In this document: piece by piece, positions 14,461 through 22,334 of the stretch
Layout of the letters: each line of letters begins with the position of its first letter
How positions within the stretch are numbered: position 1 is the first letter of the stretch
NCBI GenBank assembly: GCA_021413975.1
Contig: JAIOPJ010000029.1
Location: 1 to 64,000, forward strand
Reading direction: 5' to 3'
DNA length: 64,000 bases
Source: Gemmatimonadota bacterium
GTDB taxonomy: Bacteria; Gemmatimonadota; Gemmatimonadetes; Gemmatimonadales; Gemmatimonadaceae
Notes under the pieces: model-generated
The model's input: the letters and a program-made list of their open reading frames with translations, nothing else
The model's database searches: none
Told to the model about the DNA's origin: nothing
Translations under genes and position numbers: made by a program

Positions 14461-14575
14461 CTCGCAGCCTTGGCGGTTCGGCCGACCGTCTCCACGGGCG
14501 GCGGGCGAGTTCCCGGGGCATGTGCAAGTATCCGGGGCGGCGGCGTCTCCTTGGCGAACCCAACCGGGAGATACC

Positions 14576-16912
14576 GTGTACCGCAGTGTCATGCAGCCCC
14601 TCGTGCTCCGCAGCTTCCTTCTTCGCGCGGTCGCTCTGTTGCCCGTCCTCGCCGCTTCGGTCGCCGCACAGCGACCGGTGGACGTGGAGTTCGGCCCTGA
14701 ATGCGGGACGCGCATGTGCGTTCGGGCGCCCTGCCCGCAGCCGCCGCCCTGCACCACGCGCGGTGTGGAGCGCAGCTCGCGCGAGGTGCGCGTGACCCTC
14801 GAGGGGCGCGTGCTGCGCTATGAGGTCACGGAACAGTGGACCAACCACGGCCGCACGATCGGCGAGGCCGACTACGTGCTGCCGCTGCCGCGCGGGGCGG
14901 CCTTCGAGGACCTCGCGCTCGAGATCGACGGCGAGATGGTCACCGGCGAGGCGCTCGCGGCGGGTGAGGCGCGGCGCGTCTATGAGGAGATCGTGCGGCA
15001 GCGGCGCGACCCCGCCCTCGTCGAATGGATGGGCCTCGGCGTGCTGCGCACCCGGATCTTCCCGATCCAGCCCGGCGAGACGCGCACGGTGAAGGTGCGC
15101 TTCCGCGCGGTCGCCGAACGCGAGGGTGACGCGCTGCGCGTGGATGTGCCGGCGCCTCGCGGGCAGGGCACCAACAGCGGCACCGCGCTCTCGTTGCGCT
15201 GGCCGGCCGGCGACGGCTTCGGCGAGGCCTGGTCGCCCACGCACCGCGTGGTCGTGGGGCGCGACGGTGAGCGTCGTACGGCGCGGGTGATGGACGCCAA
15301 CGGCACCGTCACCATGCTGATCCCCGTGCGTGACAACGATCGCGCCGCGATCTCGGTGCTCACGCATGCGCCCCAGGGCGAGGACGGCTACGCGCTCATC
15401 ACGCTCACGCCGCCGATGCTCGTGCGCCGCTCGACCGCGCGCGACATCACCTTCGTGATCGACGTCTCGGGTTCGATGGCCGGGGAGAAGCTCGCGCAGG
15501 CCAAGGCGGCGGGGCGTCAGTTGCTCGGTTCGCTCGGAGCGGAGGATCGGTTCCGGATCATCGCGTTCTCGAACGACGTGGACGAGTTCCGCGACGGCTG
15601 GACCGCCGCGACCTCGATCGAACGCCGTCGCGCCGAAGCCTGGCTCTCGGAGCTGCGCGCGGTGGGTGGCACCAACATCGCCGGTGCCCTCGAGAGCGCG
15701 CTCGAGGCGGACGAACGGTCCGGCCGGCTCGCGCTCGTGCTCTTCCTCACCGACGGCGCGCCCACCGTGGGCGAGCGCCGCGCCGAACGGCTGGCGGCAC
15801 GCGCGGCGGAGTTGCGCGGTGCGCGCCGTGTGTTCACCTTCGGCCTCGGTGCCGACGTGAATGCGTCGCTGCTCGAACAGGTCGCGCTCGACGGCGCGGG
15901 GACCGCGCACTTCGTGCGGCCGGAGGAGGATGTGGAGCGCGTGGTGGGCGTGGTGGCGCAGCGGTTGTCGCGTCCGGTGGCGACGAACCTCCGGGTGCGC
16001 GCCTCGGGCGTGCAGTTGCATGCGATCCAGCCGGCGGGGCGGCTCGACCTCTTCGCCGGTCAGGAGCTCACCGTGCTCGCGCGCTATCGTCGCAGCGCGA
16101 TCCCCATGGGGTTCGGCCAGGAGAATGGTGGGCGCATCACGATCACCGGTGAGACCCCCGACGGTCCCGTGACCTGGGTGGCGCAGGCGCAGTTCCCGGC
16201 GCGGCGGACCGGCGACGCGTTCGTCGGCCGTCTCTGGGCCACGCAGCGCGTGGGGTGGCTGAGCGCGGAGCGTCGCCGGAACGGCGCGTCGCCCGAGCTC
16301 GATGGGGAGATGCGCCAGCTCGGAGAGAAGTGGGGCATCCCCACGGAGTTGACGTCGTACCTCGTGCTCGAGCCCGGCATGCAGGTGGCCCAGCGGCAGA
16401 ACGGGCTGCGCCGCGACCAGTCCGCACGGATCATCGATACGCCGAATGCACCCACGAGCACCACGCTGGGCAGCACCGACGCGCTCGCGAACCGGGGAGT
16501 GGCGGGTGGCGTGGCGAGCCCCTCGGTCACGGGCGCCGCGACTGCGGATCGCAAGGAGACCGAGTTCGATCGCGCCAAGCAGGCCGCGACCATGCGTGAG
16601 TCGCGTTCGATGTCGGACTTCGTGACGGCCAACACCGAGACGTCGCGCCGCACGGCGACGCGGAGCTTCACGCTCGTCGATAGTACTTGGGTCGATGCGC
16701 GGCCCGCGGCGACCGACGCGCGCGTGGTCACGGTGAAGCCCTTCTCGCCGGCGTACTTCACGCTCATGGAACGCGTCGGCGAACTGCGCGAACTCTTCGG
16801 CGTGGGCGAACGGATGGAGATCCACGGGCGCGCGGTGACGATCCGCCTCGCGGCGGACGGTGCGGCGCGGCTCGACGAGGCCGCACTCACGGCCATCACC
16901 CGCGACTGGTAG
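14576..16912 (+). CDS. Exported VIT/von Willebrand factor A domain protein
   Basis: A 778-residue protein. GTG 14576 is chosen because GGGAG (14566-14570) precedes it by five bases and a signal peptide follows at once (hydrophobic core before SVAAQ). A Cys-rich strip (PECG..MC...PC...PC) leads into a VIT domain (about 55-175; EVTEQWTNHG, DYVLPLPRGA, ARRVYEEIVRQRRDPALVEW). The vWA domain covers about 290-460, with an intact metal site DVSGS near residue 296 and TDGAPT. The C-terminal part contains LTSYLVLEPG, typical of VIT-vWA proteins, then a low-complexity linker. These domains mediate adhesion or protein assembly outside the cytoplasmic membrane. It ends five bases before an ECF sigma factor gene. 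Confidence 0.9.
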   Translation: MYRSVMQPLVLRSFLLRAVALLPVLAASVAAQRPVDVEFGPECGTRMCVRAPCPQPPPCTTRGVERSSREVRVTLEGRVLRYEVTEQWTNHGRTIGEADYVLPLPRGAAFEDLALEIDGEMVTGEALAAGEARRVYEEIVRQRRDPALVEWMGLGVLRTRIFPIQPGETRTVKVRFRAVAEREGDALRVDVPAPRGQGTNSGTALSLRWPAGDGFGEAWSPTHRVVVGRDGERRTARVMDANGTVTMLIPVRDNDRAAISVLTHAPQGEDGYALITLTPPMLVRRSTARDITFVIDVSGSMAGEKLAQAKAAGRQLLGSLGAEDRFRIIAFSNDVDEFRDGWTAATSIERRRAEAWLSELRAVGGTNIAGALESALEADERSGRLALVLFLTDGAPTVGERRAERLAARAAELRGARRVFTFGLGADVNASLLEQVALDGAGTAHFVRPEEDVERVVGVVAQRLSRPVATNLRVRASGVQLHAIQPAGRLDLFAGQELTVLARYRRSAIPMGFGQENGGRITITGETPDGPVTWVAQAQFPARRTGDAFVGRLWATQRVGWLSAERRRNGASPELDGEMRQLGEKWGIPTELTSYLVLEPGMQVAQRQNGLRRDQSARIIDTPNAPTSTTLGSTDALANRGVAGGVASPSVTGAATADRKETEFDRAKQAATMRESRSMSDFVTANTETSRRTATRSFTLVDSTWVDARPAATDARVVTVKPFSPAYFTLMERVGELRELFGVGERMEIHGRAVTIRLAADGAARLDEAALTAITRDW

Positions 16913-16917
16913 GGCGA

Positions 16918-17433
16918 GTGGACCAGGCCGAACGTCTCTTCCGCGAGTATCACGCCACGCTCGTGCGGTATCTCACCCGACGGCTGGGTGACCGCGACTG
17001 GGCGGAGGAGGTCGCGCAGGAGACGTTCGTCCGGGCCCTGCGCCAGGACACGATCGTGAACGAACGCAGCTGGGTGTTCGCAGTGGCGCACAACCTGGTG
17101 CGCGACGGGGCGCGCCGCGATGCGCGCAACCGTCGCCACCTGGAGCTGCTGGCCGAGGAACAGCGCGATGCGCACGAGCCGGCGGCCGATCTCACGATCG
17201 AGCGGGCGCAGAGTGCGGCCTTCGCGCGGAAGGCGCTCGAAGGTCTGACGGAACGTGACCGGCAGGCGCTGCTGCTGAAGGAGGAAGGGCTGGACTACGG
17301 CGAGATCGCCGAGATCCTGCAGATCGAGAAGAACTCGGTTGGCACGACACTGTCGCGGGCGCGGAAGCGTCTCGCCGAGTCATATGAGGCGCTGGTGGCT
17401 GCGCGCCGTGGAGGAAGCAATGCCGCGTCCTGA
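16918..17433 (+). CDS. ECF RNA polymerase sigma factor
   Basis: A 171-residue sigma-70-family protein. GTG 16918 is chosen because TAGGG lies just upstream and the product begins cleanly with VDQAERLFREYHATLVRYL. Region 2 covers about 7-70 (DRDWAEEVAQETFVRAL, typical of helix 2.2) and region 4 about 95-155 (LTERDRQALLLKEEGLDYGEIAEIL...SVGTTLSRARKRL, a helix-turn-helix). It overlaps the next gene by 14 bases, the usual arrangement for a sigma factor and its regulator, and lies five bases after the vWA gene. Confidence 0.92.
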   Translation: MDQAERLFREYHATLVRYLTRRLGDRDWAEEVAQETFVRALRQDTIVNERSWVFAVAHNLVRDGARRDARNRRHLELLAEEQRDAHEPAADLTIERAQSAAFARKALEGLTERDRQALLLKEEGLDYGEIAEILQIEKNSVGTTLSRARKRLAESYEALVAARRGGSNAAS

Positions 17434-18589
17434 TGAACGACCCGACGATGGGCTGATCCACGCCTGGCTCGACGGTGAGCTCGGTGCCGAGGAAGCTGCG
17501 CGCGTGGAGCGGTTGGTGGCAGAGGACGCCGAGTGGGCCGCGGCCGCCGCGGAGGCGCGCGGACTGATGGCCGCGAGCACGCGGATCCTCGGTGCGCTGG
17601 ACGTGGTGGCGGGGGATGTGATCCCGCGCGGCGGGAGTGCGGCGGGGACGTTCGCGCCGACGGTCGACGGGTCGCGTGCGCCGACGGCTCGCGTGACGCG
17701 CTGGGCCGTGCCGACGTGGATGCGGGTGGCGGCGGGGGTCGCGCTCGTGGCAGGGGTCGGGTATCTCGGAATCGAACGAACGGCGGATCGATCGTCCGTC
17801 GCCTCGGCGCCGGGTGCGACGCTCGACGGTGCACGCGAGACTCGTGCGGAAGTGGCCGACGCGATCAGCCGTGATGCCGTCGAGCCGGTCGCGAAGCAAG
17901 CGGAGAGCGGTGTCGCGCCGTCCTCAGCTCAGGCGACAGTACCGTCCGCCACGGGCGGCGCCCCCGCAACACCGGAACGCAGTGCGCGCCAGAGTGCGCA
18001 GGCGACGAGGACCGAGTCCGACCTCTCGGCGCGCGATGCGAGGCGCGCTGCACCGGTCGCTGCGGCGGTCGCCGCGCCGACGAGCACTGCGCCGGTCACC
18101 ACGCCGCCGGTCACAGGTGAGACGGGAGTGGCCGGAGGGATCGCGAGCGGCGCGGTCTCGCGCTCCGCCGCAGAGTCGAAGGAGATGCTCACGACAGCAG
18201 GGGTCGCGACGGAACGTGAAGCCCGCGCCAAGACGATGCAGCGCGCGCTCGCGCAGACGCCGAGCGCACCGCTGGGGCGCGCCCTCGACAGTCCGAGCGC
18301 CACCGCCGCGCCAGGCGCCCTGATGGCGGATCGCCTCGCCGAGAATGTCGTGACACGCACCAGCGTCAGTGGCTGCTGGCGTGCGGAGACCGCGGCGAAG
18401 GTGGATTCGATCCAGGTCTCGCCGCGCATCGTCCGGTCGGTCGGCGACACGCTGGTGCTGGCGCTCACGCCGACCGGCGCGGAGGCGCGGGTGGTGCGGG
18501 AGTCGGACACGACCCTGCGCGGCAGCGCGCGCGGCGTTACGGGCCCGTCCGCGACGTTCCGCGCCGACCGCACGGCCTGCACGCCGTAG
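17420..18589 (+). CDS. Membrane-anchored anti-sigma-like protein
   Basis: A 389-residue protein starting at ATG 17420 with GGAGGA at 17410-17415, inside the end of the sigma gene. The first 60 residues (LIHAWLDGELGAEEAARVERLVAED) match the helical anti-sigma N-terminus but lack the HxxxCxxC zinc motif, so it would be a zinc-independent type. One membrane segment lies near 96-118 (MRVAAGVALVAGVGYLG). A long Ala/Thr/Pro-rich periplasmic stretch (about 125-310) ends in a small domain with CW and a final C. It probably sequesters the upstream sigma factor at the membrane; inferred from position and fold. Confidence 0.8.
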   Translation: MPRPDERPDDGLIHAWLDGELGAEEAARVERLVAEDAEWAAAAAEARGLMAASTRILGALDVVAGDVIPRGGSAAGTFAPTVDGSRAPTARVTRWAVPTWMRVAAGVALVAGVGYLGIERTADRSSVASAPGATLDGARETRAEVADAISRDAVEPVAKQAESGVAPSSAQATVPSATGGAPATPERSARQSAQATRTESDLSARDARRAAPVAAAVAAPTSTAPVTTPPVTGETGVAGGIASGAVSRSAAESKEMLTTAGVATEREARAKTMQRALAQTPSAPLGRALDSPSATAAPGALMADRLAENVVTRTSVSGCWRAETAAKVDSIQVSPRIVRSVGDTLVLALTPTGAEARVVRESDTTLRGSARGVTGPSATFRADRTACTP

Positions 18590-18626: not shown

Positions 18627-18633
18627 GTCATAC

Positions 18634-18855
18634 ATGAAGACCTCGGCCCTCACCATCCGGCTCGACGCGAGTCTGCAGCGCCAGCTGGACCGGCTCGCGA
18701 AGGCATCCGGGCGGTCGCGTAGCGACATCGTGCGCGACGCCCTGCGCCGGCAGCTCGCCCTGTTGCAGTTCGAGGAGGCACGGCGCCAGGTCACGCCCTT
18801 CGCCGAAGCGCGCGGCTACCTCACTGACGAGGACGTCTTTCGCGCGGTGTCGTGA
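18634..18855 (+). CDS. Ribbon-helix-helix antitoxin
   Basis: A 73-residue protein. Residues 1-45 form a ribbon-helix-helix DNA-binding domain (ALTIRLDASLQRQLDRLA followed by GRSRSDIVRDALRRQL), typical of CopG/VapB-type antitoxins that repress their own operon. The acidic C-terminus (FAEARGYLTDEDVFRAV) would bind and block the toxin. Its stop overlaps the toxin's GTG, so the two are co-translated, the normal layout for type II systems. Confidence 0.88.
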   Translation: MKTSALTIRLDASLQRQLDRLAKASGRSRSDIVRDALRRQLALLQFEEARRQVTPFAEARGYLTDEDVFRAVS

Positions 18856-19262
18856 AGGTCTGCCTGGACACCAATGTGCTCGTCGCGGCCTTCGCGACCC
18901 GGGGACTCTGCGCCGACCTGCTGCGCACCGTCGTCACCAAGCACGAGCTCGTGATCGGCGAGGTGATCCTGACCGAGTTGCGGCGCGTGCTGAGGACCAG
19001 GATCAGACTCCCGGACGCGCAACTCCGTTCGGTCGAGGCCGCACTCGCGCAGTATCCGGTGGTGCCGAAGCCCACGGCGCCCACGATGATCGAGCTTCGG
19101 GACCACAGCGACCGGTGGATCATCGCGACGGCGGTCGATGGAGGAGCGGACGCACTCGTCACGGGCGATCAGGACCTGCTCATCGCGAGAGCCTCAGCGC
19201 CGCTGCCGATCGTGGATCCACGCGAGTTCTGGGAGTTGTTGCGCCGCGGGAGCAGAGGCTGA
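18852..19262 (+). CDS. PIN-domain ribonuclease toxin
   Basis: A 136-residue PIN-domain protein of the group annotated as putative toxin component of PIN family. Acidic residues expected for metal-dependent RNA cleavage are visible: CLDTNVLVAAF (Asp6), GEVILTELRRVL (Glu near 42), SDRWIIATAVDGGADALVTGDQDL (Asp residues near 91, 102 and 107). Start is GTG 18852 overlapping the antitoxin stop. In this family the toxin is held inactive by its partner until the antitoxin is degraded. Confidence 0.88.
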   Translation: MKVCLDTNVLVAAFATRGLCADLLRTVVTKHELVIGEVILTELRRVLRTRIRLPDAQLRSVEAALAQYPVVPKPTAPTMIELRDHSDRWIIATAVDGGADALVTGDQDLLIARASAPLPIVDPREFWELLRRGSRG

Positions 19263-19314: not shown

Positions 19315-20016
19315 TCAGCCGTACGACCCGCCCGCATAGATCAGGTTCACCGCGAAGAAGAACACCGGATTGAACGCGAAATCGAACAGCTGCCACGCGA
19401 TGAAGATCCCCAGGAACCCGATCGCCGGCGTGCTCCAGATGAACTCCTGGTACTTCGACGTCGTCCCGCGGTCCATGAAGAGCGTGATCGCCGCACTCCC
19501 GTCGAGCGGAGGGAACGGCAACAGGTTGAAGACCATGAGCAGCAGGTTCATGGAGAAGATGACGCTCAGGAACCGGCCGACCGCGAGCCAGGTCGCGCCG
19601 GCGTCGCTGCCGGCGAGGTCGCCGAAGCGGACCGAGTCGGGCGCGAAGAACACCCCGCTCAGCTCGCCGCCGCGCAGCGCGATCGCGGCGAGCAGCGCCA
19701 GCGCCAGGTTCGCGCCCGGCCCGGCGAGCGCCATCCAGGCCGCGCGCCGCGGATGCATCCGTGCCCAGTTCACGTTGTAGGGCGCACTCGCGAACCCCAT
19801 CGGCCAGCCGGTGAGCAGCGCGCTCATGAGCGGGAGCACCACCATGCCGAACGGTTCGCGCCGGATGTGCGGCAGCGGATCGAGCGAGACCTGTCCGCCG
19901 TCGTACGCCGTGCGATCGCCGCCGCGGAGCGCCGCCCACGCGTGCGCGGCCTCGTGGAGCGTGGTCGAGAAGAGGAAGACGATGAAGTAGACGAGCGCTT
20001 CGGAGATCTCCGCCAC
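19315..20016 (-). CDS. M50 site-2-protease-like membrane metallopeptidase
   Basis: A 233-residue polytopic membrane protein. The zinc motif LHEAAHAW (His21, Glu22, His25) lies in the first membrane segment, and the second conserved site NLLPFPPLDGS (near 170-180) supplies the third ligand, Asp. This short form lacks a PDZ domain, as in the group-3 site-2 proteases often called Rv3-type peptidases. It would cleave membrane-embedded substrates; the substrate is unknown. Start is GTG 20016, overlapping the R2lox stop by one base, so it is the last gene of a four-gene operon. Confidence 0.9.
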   Translation of the reverse strand: MAEISEALVYFIVFLFSTTLHEAAHAWAALRGGDRTAYDGGQVSLDPLPHIRREPFGMVVLPLMSALLTGWPMGFASAPYNVNWARMHPRRAAWMALAGPGANLALALLAAIALRGGELSGVFFAPDSVRFGDLAGSDAGATWLAVGRFLSVIFSMNLLLMVFNLLPFPPLDGSAAITLFMDRGTTSKYQEFIWSTPAIGFLGIFIAWQLFDFAFNPVFFFAVNLIYAGGSYG

Positions 20017-20894
20017 TATCGATCGCCCTCTTCCGCGTACTCGGCCTCGCTCAGCACTTCTCCCCCGAGCCCCGCCGCCGCGGCGAACCGCTGGTACTGC
20101 GCCAGTGCATACGCGCTCAGCTTGTCGATGTCGACCAATGGCTGCGGATAGTCGAACTCGGCCACCGTCGCGAGCACGTTGGGCAGGTGACGCTCGAAGG
20201 TCGCCGAGACCACTTCGCGCAACTCCGGTCGCTCCGCCGTGAGCTCGGCGATGCAGCGCATGCCGAAGGTGACGTGTCGCCCCTCGTCGCGCTTGACCAG
20301 GCGGAACCCCTCCTGCAGCCCGGGCAGCCAGCCTCGCGTCGCCAGCGCATCGTGCGCCCCCACGTACCCGGTGCGCGCGAGCATCGCCTCCACCACGCCC
20401 ATGTAGTGCGTCACCGATTCGGCGAAGACGGGGATGATCCGGTCCCGGCCCTCCGCCCGGCGCAGCCGTTCCGTCACCTCCTCGAGGTCGGCGATGAGCA
20501 CGGCCTGCGGCGCCGGCGTGATGTACTGCCGGGTGATCGCCCCATCCACCTCGAACACCTCGGCGAAGTACCGCGCGAAGAAGTCGAAGTGCTTCGCCTC
20601 CTCGTAGAGCTGCGTGGTGAGGAAGAGCTCCTTGTCCACGCCGAGCCCGGCGCGCGAGACGGCCGAGCAGAAGGGGGCGAGCGTCCGCGTCACCGACTCC
20701 TCCCCTTCATAGAAGAGCGAGGTGAGCCGCAGGATCTGCTCGTCGTACCGCTCGCCCGCATGCTCGCGCTTGATCATGGCCCACTGTGCGCGATCGGCCG
20801 AGAGGTCGACGTCCGCGGGGTCCCAGTGGAGCTGCTTCGCCTTGCTGTAGAGCGAGAAGTAGGGACTCGTGAACTGCGCGGCGGTGAGCGGCAT
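20016..20894 (-). CDS. R2-like ligand-binding oxidase (R2lox)
   Basis: A 292-residue ferritin-like protein. All six predicted metal ligands are present: Glu65 (GEESV), Glu99 and His102 (EEAKH), Glu169, Glu204 and His207 (DEGRH). The residues that form the R2lox-specific ether cross-link, Val68 and Tyr164 (five residues before Glu169), are conserved too, which separates it from ribonucleotide reductase R2. Known R2lox proteins assemble a Mn/Fe centre, activate oxygen and bind a long-chain fatty-acid-like ligand; the biological substrate is unknown. It lies between an SCP2-like lipid carrier gene and an M50 protease gene. ATG 20894 has no clear Shine-Dalgarno, but it starts two bases after the upstream stop. 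Confidence 0.9.
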   Translation of the reverse strand: MPLTAAQFTSPYFSLYSKAKQLHWDPADVDLSADRAQWAMIKREHAGERYDEQILRLTSLFYEGEESVTRTLAPFCSAVSRAGLGVDKELFLTTQLYEEAKHFDFFARYFAEVFEVDGAITRQYITPAPQAVLIADLEEVTERLRRAEGRDRIIPVFAESVTHYMGVVEAMLARTGYVGAHDALATRGWLPGLQEGFRLVKRDEGRHVTFGMRCIAELTAERPELREVVSATFERHLPNVLATVAEFDYPQPLVDIDKLSAYALAQYQRFAAAAGLGGEVLSEAEYAEEGDR

Positions 20895-20896
20895 GG

Positions 20897-21325
20897 TCAG
20901 GACTCGTCGGGAAAACGGGTGGGCACCGCGCGGGCGCACGCACAGAGTGCGCTCGCGGACCGGGCGTGCATCATGAGGGTGGCGAGCGAACCCTTCACCC
21001 CGATCCTGCCCCGCGTGACGCCGGCGAGCGGGTCGAGCTCGCCGCGCATGACGAGCTTCCAGGTGGCATACGGCGCGCGGAGCACGAAGGGCGCGGTGAC
21101 GGCATCGGTGTGGCGGATCACGGCGCCGTGGCAGCGGCCGCGGTCGAGCGTGAGCTCGACCGCGACGGCGTCAGGGTAGCCGAGCTCGGGAGCGGCGTCG
21201 AGCACGAGCGCGACCGGCCAGGTCCACTTGGCCGCGAGCTCGCGGTAGGTCATGTCGGCTTCGATGGCGTCCTGGAACGCCGCGGCCCACTCAGGCGTGA
21301 AGGGACGGTGGGCGACGGCGCTCAT
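20897..21325 (-). CDS. SCP2-like sterol/lipid-transfer domain protein
   Basis: A 142-residue soluble protein. The C-terminal two thirds carry the pattern FVLRAPYATWKLVMRGELDPL followed by GVTRGRIGVKGSLATLM, characteristic of the SCP2 fold, which holds a hydrophobic ligand in a tunnel. It ends two bases before the R2lox start, so the proteins are made together. R2lox binds a fatty-acid-like ligand, so the obvious hypothesis is that this protein carries or presents lipid to it. No signal peptide. Confidence 0.8.
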   Translation of the reverse strand: MSAVAHRPFTPEWAAAFQDAIEADMTYRELAAKWTWPVALVLDAAPELGYPDAVAVELTLDRGRCHGAVIRHTDAVTAPFVLRAPYATWKLVMRGELDPLAGVTRGRIGVKGSLATLMMHARSASALCACARAVPTRFPDES

Positions 21326-21332
21326 GTGCGTC

Positions 21333-22334
21333 TCAGGGCTTGGGCGCGGGAGCCGCCGCCGGAGCGGGCGCTTCGTCGATGGGCCAGAACTCCACGCGGT
21401 TGTCGTTGAAGAGCGGCACGGCGATCAACTTGCGCGCCGGATCGTAGCCCAGGTCGGCCGGGGAGTTGAGACCCTTCCGCAGCGTGGTGCTCGTGCCGCC
21501 CACGAAGACGGTGAGCGAGGAGTCGGCCCAGCTCGAGTAGATCGCGCGCCCGTCCGCGAGCACGATGAGTCCGTCGCCGCCGCCGGGGCCGGTGCCGAGC
21601 ACGGTGGTCTCCTTCGCGCCGATGACCCATTCGAAGATGTTCGGCGAGTTGAAGCCGATGATCATCCAGGCGTTCTTGGGCGCGTTCCAGGCGATGCCGT
21701 TGGCCGCGGATTGCCTGGGGAGCTTCACTGCGACGGTCGGCACGCCGTTGCGCACCACGAAGACCTGACTCTGCCCCGGATGCGAGACCGCGCCCTTCGC
21801 GTCGAAGGCGATGCCGCTGTCGGTGATGTAGATGCCGCCGTCGTTCCCGATCGCGACGTCATTGAGGAAGGTCGCGCGCAACGGTGCGAGGTCGATGCTC
21901 GCGACCTGCTTGCCGCTGGTGAGGTCGAACCCGCGCAGCGCATCGATGTCGGCCACCCAGAGCGTGTCGCCGCGCATCGCCATGCCCTTGGGCGCATGCA
22001 ACGTGACATCGTCGTCGGCACCGCTGATGAACGGAAGCGAGTCCATGGTCTCGCCATTGGCGCCCAACCGCACGATGTACCCGTTGTCGTCCTTCTGCGG
22101 GGCCTGCCCGTTGATGTTGGAGACGTACCAGACCTGGCGCGTCGCGTCCCAGAGGACCGACTCGGGCGTCGCGAGACCGGTGCCCGTGACGTGGAGCGGC
22201 GTGTTCGGATCCCGCACCGCAGGCGCGGCGGTCGCGGCTTCGGGCTCGGCTTCCTTCTTGGCGCACGCCACGAAGGTGATGAGGACGAACGCGGCGAGCG
22301 CACCGCGCGTAAGCGAACGGACCGTGATTGCCAT
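21333..22334 (-). CDS. SMP-30/gluconolactonase-like beta-propeller lipoprotein
   Basis: A 333-residue lipoprotein: signal segment ALAAFVLITFVACAKKE with the lipobox Cys near 24. The mature protein is a six-blade beta-propeller of the SMP-30/gluconolactonase/NHL kind, with repeats such as TPESVLWDATRQVWYVSNI, LNDVAIGNDGGIYITDSG and NGIAWNAPKNAWMIIGFN. Catalytic metal ligands are only partly recognisable, so lactonase activity is unproven. Start ATG 22334 has AGGGGA upstream. Seven bases separate it from the SCP2-like gene, making it the probable first gene of the operon, with its own divergent promoter region. Confidence 0.82.
   Translation of the reverse strand: MAITVRSLTRGALAAFVLITFVACAKKEAEPEAATAAPAVRDPNTPLHVTGTGLATPESVLWDATRQVWYVSNINGQAPQKDDNGYIVRLGANGETMDSLPFISGADDDVTLHAPKGMAMRGDTLWVADIDALRGFDLTSGKQVASIDLAPLRATFLNDVAIGNDGGIYITDSGIAFDAKGAVSHPGQSQVFVVRNGVPTVAVKLPRQSAANGIAWNAPKNAWMIIGFNSPNIFEWVIGAKETTVLGTGPGGGDGLIVLADGRAIYSSWADSSLTVFVGGTSTTLRKGLNSPADLGYDPARKLIAVPLFNDNRVEFWPIDEAPAPAAAPAPKP

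Follow-up and report, generated by a model that had tools for sequence, protein, structure and literature searches.

What does a gene for a small lipid carrier do beside the gene for a lipid-binding oxidase? The question is posed by a 64,000-nucleotide stretch of a Gemmatimonadota bacterium of the family Gemmatimonadaceae (positions 1 to 64,000 of contig JAIOPJ010000029.1, GenBank assembly GCA_021413975.1), referred to below as the window. On its minus strand, a 142 aa SCP2-domain lipid carrier of the Thermus TT1886 type (20897..21325) is encoded immediately upstream of a 292 aa R2-like ligand-binding oxidase (R2lox; 20016..20894) belonging to a divergent Gemmatimonadota clade; 2 nt separate the two genes. 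R2lox structures contain a long-chain fatty acid that lies in a tunnel and bridges the metals, together with a two-electron Tyr-Val cross-link (PMC6399176, available text). Papers of 2014 and 2019 term the physiological role of R2lox unknown (PMC4118035, PMC6399176, available text).

The survey reported here showed predicted SCP2–R2lox fusions or adjacent gene pairs in at least six phyla. Other bacteria encode SCP2 and R2lox as one polypeptide, a hint that the carrier may deliver to R2lox its putative lipid substrate. The initial annotation of the locus had proposed that the two proteins work together, and had considered that their adjacency might not be kept outside this strain. It is kept, and the recurrence of fusion and adjacency across genomes supports the core of that proposal well. 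The functional module is, on balance, probably SCP2 plus R2lox, in which an SCP2 acting like UbiJ would present a hydrophobic chain to R2lox for oxidation by Mn/Fe and O2.

Linkage of SCP2 and R2lox in Gemmatimonadota

The Gemmatimonadota survey covered 298 genomes including that of the window, and R2lox was searched for with the window protein at 1e-10, a setting at which more distant R2lox may be missed. Genes were called with a home-made hexamer script, which missed or cut some genes and called none for loci L046 and L273; therefore, profile matches on stop-to-stop reading frames were used to judge fusion and adjacency. R2lox was found in 24 genomes, comprising 8 close (51–100% identity) and 16 distant (33–43%) proteins. 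Fifteen of the 24 loci are linked, with SCP2 beside or near R2lox in seven and fused to the R2lox N-terminus in eight. Among the close proteins, SCP2 lies upstream in 7/8, directly so in five (the window, G129, G236, G203 and G281), while in G123 an amidohydrolase gene stands between the two. Half of the distant proteins (8/16) are encoded in one reading frame in the order SCP2–linker–R2lox.

The clade of the window protein comprises nine sequences, and SCP2 adjacency is seen in seven of them. The unlinked members are G014, in which SCP2 is absent from the 5.2 kb R2lox contig and present on another contig, and a ninth close relative, L050, in which SCP2 was not found within 8 kb of R2lox. A separate search detected SCP2 in 80/298 genomes, including all 24 with R2lox and 56 of the 274 others (Fisher P 1e-15 by genome, uncorrected for descent and so overstated). 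All 13 genera with R2lox are among the 31 SCP2-bearing genera of the 119 covered (P 2.6e-9, likewise uncorrected for descent and overstated).

Linkage in other lineages

Named genomes were represented by the best 80 of 223 confirmed R2lox loci, 11 of which had less than 1.5 kb of upstream sequence. SCP2 is present in 12 of the 80. Six of the 80 duplicate genomes of the Gemmatimonadota survey, and four of these six are linked, as are 8 of the other 74. Fusions come from a Bacteroidetes metagenome-assembled genome (MAG; L064), a Rhodothermales MAG (L072), Thermoflexus (L080), a Roseiflexaceae MAG (L094) and two unassigned MAGs (L060 and L091). A Thermoanaerobaculia MAG (L061) carries SCP2 and R2lox as adjacent separate genes, and Melghirimyces (L076) has the order SCP2–alcohol dehydrogenase (ADH)–R2lox. 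Together with L228, L230, L231, L234 and L235, which belong to the phylum of the Rhodothermales genome, 11 fusions lie outside the Gemmatimonadota sample, and 19 non-identical fused sequences were collected overall. Acidobacteriota, the order of Melghirimyces and Deinococcota have SCP2 and R2lox as neighbours encoded separately, sometimes with a gene for a zinc ADH between them.

The order of Melghirimyces was surveyed from the SCP2 side only. SCP2 was found in 9/42 genomes, in ten loci, all of them beside R2lox (eight directly, two with ADH between). For the group of the Rhodothermales genome, the phylum name is taxonomy-dependent (NCBI places Rhodothermales in Rhodothermota; phylum names were checked). 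Of its 198 genomes, nine carry SCP2, eight R2lox and seven both, so that SCP2 occurs in 7/8 genomes with R2lox vs. 2/190 others; all seven are linked, six as fusions and one as overlapping frames. In Deinococcota, with R2lox counted above 200 bits, SCP2 was found in 32, R2lox in 24 and both in 18 of 101 genomes (SCP2 in 18/24 R2lox genomes vs. 14/77 others). Linkage was found in 6/24 R2lox genomes of this phylum, four seen in loci and two derived from coordinates. ADH follows SCP2 in 20/20 Deinococcota loci examined (of 36 matches), and R2lox is next in four. As a further observation, these SCP2–zinc ADH loci (L244–L263) give context to the orphan Thermus structures 1wfr and 2cx7. The Chloroflexota sample of 251 genomes contains SCP2 in 41, R2lox in 34 and both in eight, the 200-bit line being conservative for the R2lox count.

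The SCP2–R2lox link is patchy, not general, and a number of findings weigh against the proposed partnership. In Gemmatimonadota, 9/24 R2lox have no SCP2 in the examined flanks (8/16 distant proteins and G014); for the eight unlinked distant loci these flanks spanned 7.5–9 kb on each side, apart from the upstream flank of L033 (5.3 kb) and the downstream flank of L029 (0.2 kb). In G159, SCP2 and R2lox are parted by opposite-strand genes. Conversely, 56 of the 80 SCP2-bearing Gemmatimonadota genomes have no R2lox, and the same is true of six of the eight SCP2-bearing genomes in the window's own genus. No SCP2 was seen in 68 of the 80 named loci, ten of which had less than 1.5 kb upstream; none of the Anaerolineae- or Anaerolineales-titled loci among the 80 is linked, and neither is the 13-member R2lox clade of Bacillus, Neobacillus, Alicyclobacillus and relatives. 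In Polycladospora, of the order of Melghirimyces (G313, L105), R2lox is present but SCP2 gave no match. Co-occurrence in Chloroflexota does not reach significance (8/34, P 0.16), and 1 of 30 SCP2 loci examined (of 43 matches, 1.5 kb flanks) is linked, that of the centre genome. In addition, related genomes are not independent, and the P values overstate the association.

Phylogeny

An R2lox tree of 142 sequences was built as a quick tree with SH-aLRT support only and an arbitrary root. Identical sequences had been removed (196 to 145), and matches covering fewer than 180 model positions were dropped. Linked sequences are enriched in this set, as SCP2 searches were the source of many of them, and fractions are therefore given per survey. 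The linked state requires 12 changes on the tree and the fused state five, and the states are clustered beyond all shuffles. Gain and loss cannot be told apart by the 12 changes, and the starred branches alone force fewer (five for the unlinked state). The window clade is one deep branch, 2.25 changes per site from the bulk of R2lox. The SCP2 tree gives 11 changes; it has few columns and was used for this count only.

Three lower-scoring Chloroflexota sequences on the R2lox tree keep V72, Y162 and A171 and, by these residues, constitute a divergent R2lox-like clade and not an NrdB outgroup; therefore, the root of the tree is not meaningful. At L285, L286 and L287, divergent R2lox-like proteins of Chloroflexota keep A171 and the V/Y pair but have Gln instead of Tyr175, and some Chloroflexota genomes contain up to four R2lox-profile matches. 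A short-pattern search found no relative in viral contigs.

Identity of the R2lox and SCP2 proteins

The window oxidase matches PF00268 with 47.9 bits and the NCBIfam R2lox models with E 1e-43 in a profile search. It misses the curated cut-offs of the latter (best 149.8 bits vs. 194–346 for the five R2lox models). Judged by these profiles, R2lox is by far the best family for the protein, yet the protein is divergent. Mapping on Geobacillus 4hr0 bore out the initial annotation, according to which all metal ligands and the Val68/Tyr164 pair are kept. The four Glu and two His ligands are intact (E65, E99, H102, E169, E204 and H207), and the cross-link pair V68/Y164 is present, as in 9/9 sequences of the window clade. 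Residues G64, A173 and Y177 of the window protein correspond to Geobacillus G68, A171 and Y175. Ala at position 171 leaves the R2lox lipid tunnel open, whereas the R2 subunit of ribonucleotide reductase (RNR) has Phe (PMC6399176, available text). The equivalent of A173 is Ala in 9/9 window-clade sequences, 34/34 other linked sequences and 95/99 of the rest, with Gly in four. The AlphaFold2 model of the window protein has a pLDDT of 93.5, and in a Foldseek comparison with the PDB, ranks 1–34 are all R2lox, with R2 proteins starting at rank 35. Identity to the R2lox structures is 24–29% in structural alignments, and TM is 0.75–0.84 by query length.

The PF00268 family also contains RNR R2 subunits, and membership in it is what favours the alternative that the oxidase is such a subunit misread as R2lox. 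The probability of this is negligible. The cross-link pair is kept, the tunnel residue is Ala where R2 proteins have Phe (the distinction drawn in the available text of PMC6399176), and the best 34 structural matches are R2lox. Moreover, the window R2lox is the single PF00268 match in the genome (assembly 92.7% complete), which encodes a class II RNR (NrdJ, 605 bits); therefore, the R2lox gene does not encode the nucleotide-reductase subunit of this organism. An R2 identity was rejected on these grounds.

Variation at the cross-link was observed in three Gemmatimonadota R2lox (L018, L023 and L025; wide loci L027, L032 and L034), in which Met replaces Val while Tyr and all ligands are kept, so that the usual ether bond is presumably out of reach. 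The genes next to these R2lox match in size across the three loci; those in L027 encode E and F proteins of type II secretion/pilus systems.

The window SCP2 matches the Thermus TT1886 structures over nearly its full length (1wfr, E 1.1e-19; 2cx7, E 3.3e-19), and its PF02036 score of 21.0 bits is just below the cut-off of 21.3. The SCP2 relatives of L012, L064 and L138 pass this cut-off; the fusions L080, L094 and L228 are unlisted at E 0.001. The structure model of one SCP2–R2lox fusion consists of two separate folds matching R2lox and the TT1886 SCP2 (2cx7, 1wfr), connected by a low-confidence linker of about 34 residues (139–172). In one Anaerolineae genome (L137, frame 1–1896), a wax ester synthase/DGAT carries a member of the same SCP2 family as a C-terminal fusion.

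Neighbouring genes

The pair is part of a locus of four densely packed minus-strand genes within 19315–22334 of the window, and the gene families named in the initial annotation were recovered there at the same positions. Upstream of SCP2 lies a gene for a 333 aa SMP-30/gluconolactonase-like beta-propeller protein (21333..22334, minus strand; PF08450, 28.2 bits, cut-off 26.3), whose N-terminus (..TFVAC) resembles a lipoprotein signal under the lipobox rule, making it a putative lipoprotein. Downstream of R2lox lies a gene for a 233 aa M50 site-2-protease-like membrane metalloprotease (19315..20016, minus strand; PF02163, 43.7 bits, cut-off 27.2). Its translation contains HEAAH and NLLPFPPLDG, the HExxH and DG motifs of M50 peptidases. 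The SMP-30-like and SCP2 genes are 7 nt apart, SCP2 and R2lox 2 nt, and R2lox and M50 overlap by 1 nt; with this spacing, the four genes look like one predicted transcription unit.

Such packing on one strand is the argument for the idea of the initial annotation that the whole set may form one system for oxidising lipids or for membrane quality control, with the propeller lipoprotein and the intramembrane protease acting together with carrier and oxidase. The distribution of the outer genes makes this very unlikely. In the window's genus, SCP2 occurs in 8/12 sampled genomes, and the SMP-30-like gene lies beside it or one gene away in 8/8, six of them without R2lox. Among these eight genomes, R2lox was found in two, LPG_synthase_TM between in two, and M50 within four genes in two, one of which lacks R2lox (G183, L268; order SMP-30, SCP2, M50). 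The wide loci of the 23 other Gemmatimonadota R2lox genomes contain no M50 match, and SMP-30 only in G129, of the window's genus. By gene order, the SMP-30-like gene is a syntenic neighbour of SCP2 and not R2lox-specific, and M50 is probably a local neighbour outside the module. The four-gene system was rejected, as SMP-30 and M50 do not track R2lox; of the neighbours whose conservation at R2lox loci the initial annotation proposed to survey, SCP2 is retained in the proportion given above and M50 is not.

In other Gemmatimonadaceae, the gene before SCP2 often belongs to the flippase-like family LPG_synthase_TM (LPG_TM). It also precedes SCP2 in 5/7 linked genomes of the window clade, one case being a contig-edge fragment under the Pfam cut-off, and LPG_TM–SCP2 pairs occur in Gemmatimonadaceae without R2lox (L203, L209, L211, L212, L213, L218, L225 and L283). 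SCP2 and LPG_TM could accordingly serve membrane-lipid housekeeping, with R2lox just sharing their transcription unit in this family, in which case the Gemmatimonadaceae adjacency would be uninformative about R2lox. We consider this distinctly improbable: it leaves unexplained both the pairs in the order of Melghirimyces and the fusions in a single frame that occur in Gemmatimonadota, Chloroflexota and the Rhodothermales/Bacteroidetes lineage, and the LPG_TM cluster is limited to the window clade among the 22 linked loci analysed. Our reading is that SCP2 is part of a lipid-handling block in which R2lox would be ancestral in the close clade and often lost, loss being favoured over gain by the shared position. 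In two scanned cases from other Gemmatimonadaceae (L271, 7282–9666; L275, 2527–5028), a gene with both a beta-propeller and a phosphoesterase (PF04185) region precedes LPG_TM–SCP2.

A search for a third partner in the 22 linked loci revealed no other family at a fixed place beside R2lox across lineages. The largest other clusters are antisense frames of R2lox. Protein kinases occur at varying positions (a seven-locus cluster; Pkinase in each of the five members scanned), four loci have an ABC protein (two scanned), and sortilin-like genes along with LPG_TM occur in Gemmatimonadota. The related loci L060, L064, L072 and L091 have further genes in common.

Next to the four genes, the plus strand of the window encodes a ribbon-helix-helix protein followed by a PIN-domain protein (18631–19262), an ordinary toxin-antitoxin-like pair, and a VIT/von Willebrand domain protein, a sigma factor and a probable anti-sigma gene (14573–18589). 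Genes of sizes similar to the latter set lie downstream of SCP2 or R2lox in L050, L035 and L264.

Proposed mechanism

According to the preferred reading, SCP2 would pick up a hydrophobic molecule, either in the membrane or in the cytosol, and present its chain (acyl, alkyl or isoprenoid) to R2lox, which would admit it into its tunnel. The Mn/Fe site of R2lox would then use O2 for a two-electron oxidation of the chain, in the simplest case a hydroxylation. Where a zinc ADH is encoded between the genes, as in some Deinococcota and two loci of the order of Melghirimyces, it may oxidise the product further. SCP2 would have the role that UbiJ has for the ubiquinone hydroxylases; UbiJ uses its SCP2 domain to bind hydrophobic intermediates within a complex of ubiquinone enzymes (PMC6747719, available text). 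The linkage is shown by comparative genomics, and the intact active site, the tunnel residue and the predicted fold by the sequence and model; the contact between the two proteins, the passage of lipid from SCP2 to R2lox, the identity of this lipid and the hydroxylation are inferred. The low-confidence linker in the modelled fusion fits delivery by a carrier to the tunnel, and an alcohol product that is oxidised further would agree with the intervening zinc ADH of two lineages.

The direction may be the reverse, with R2lox releasing an oxidised lipid (or removing harmful lipid products) and SCP2, as an acceptor or protector, carrying the product off to the membrane or to a following enzyme. 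The SCP2-first order of genes and domains carries no information on direction, and Deinococcota SCP2 is tied to ADH in all the loci examined there, 16 of them without R2lox in the 1.5 kb flanks. We nevertheless regard an acceptor as unlikely, since SCP2 is the partner retained with R2lox where the dehydrogenase is absent, in the fusions, and since the precedent of UbiJ is the binding of biosynthetic intermediates that are hydroxylated afterwards (PMC6747719, available text).

With SCP2 as the donor, a broader claim is quite possible, although we advance it tentatively: SCP2–R2lox may be a self-contained bacterial lipid mono-oxygenase, sometimes a single polypeptide, in which a tethered lipid-transfer domain loads a Mn/Fe oxidase; it would have spread or persisted in at least six phyla, and SCP2 would point to the substrate class.

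Comparison with known systems

The ligands, the V/Y pair, the tunnel Ala and the fold are common to the window R2lox and the known R2lox (GkR2loxI of Geobacillus, 4hr0; Mycobacterium tuberculosis, 3ee4/4ac8; Saccharopolyspora, 7qbp; Sulfolobus, 6qrz/7qbk). Unlike these, the window protein has two short insertions, falls into a separate deep clade and has an SCP2 partner gene. GkR2loxI was reported in 2024 to be an alkane hydroxylase on the basis of alkane loss with crude lysates; a ligand double mutant differed by 11–21% in remaining alkane, and its activity was, according to the authors, not significantly lost (PMC10867098, available text). The report is only suggestive, because crude lysate was used and the double mutant changed little. 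The statement of the initial annotation that the natural substrate of R2lox is unknown stands with this report as a qualifier.

A natural SCP2–R2lox fusion is a direct handle on the substrate and role of R2lox, and if the proposed partnership is true, the SCP2 domain indicates the class of its substrate. No paper naming both R2lox and SCP2 was found in the open-access literature searched, most subscription papers and bioRxiv preprints being outside the scope of the search; the fusion may show in domain databases.

The alkane-oxidation cluster of Geobacillus kaustophilus GK2771 places R2lox near alcohol/aldehyde dehydrogenase and beta-oxidation genes, and no SCP2 is named for it in the available text (PMC10867098); the four window genes include no such beta-oxidation genes. 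UbiJ binds, and UbiT is proposed to bind, hydrophobic intermediates of a hydroxylating pathway (PMC6747719, available text), and the window SCP2, also a small SCP2 protein, may be likened to them. However, the partner hydroxylases of UbiJ and UbiT are the flavin enzymes UbiI/H/F or UbiU–UbiV, not R2lox. The Thermus SCP2 TT1886 (1wfr, 2cx7) belongs to the same SCP2 subfamily as the window protein, and the linkage with R2lox gives context to this orphan structure. Deinococcota SCP2 of the TT1886 family is found in an SCP2–ADH–R2lox cluster in 4/20 loci examined, whereas the window has no ADH between SCP2 and R2lox.

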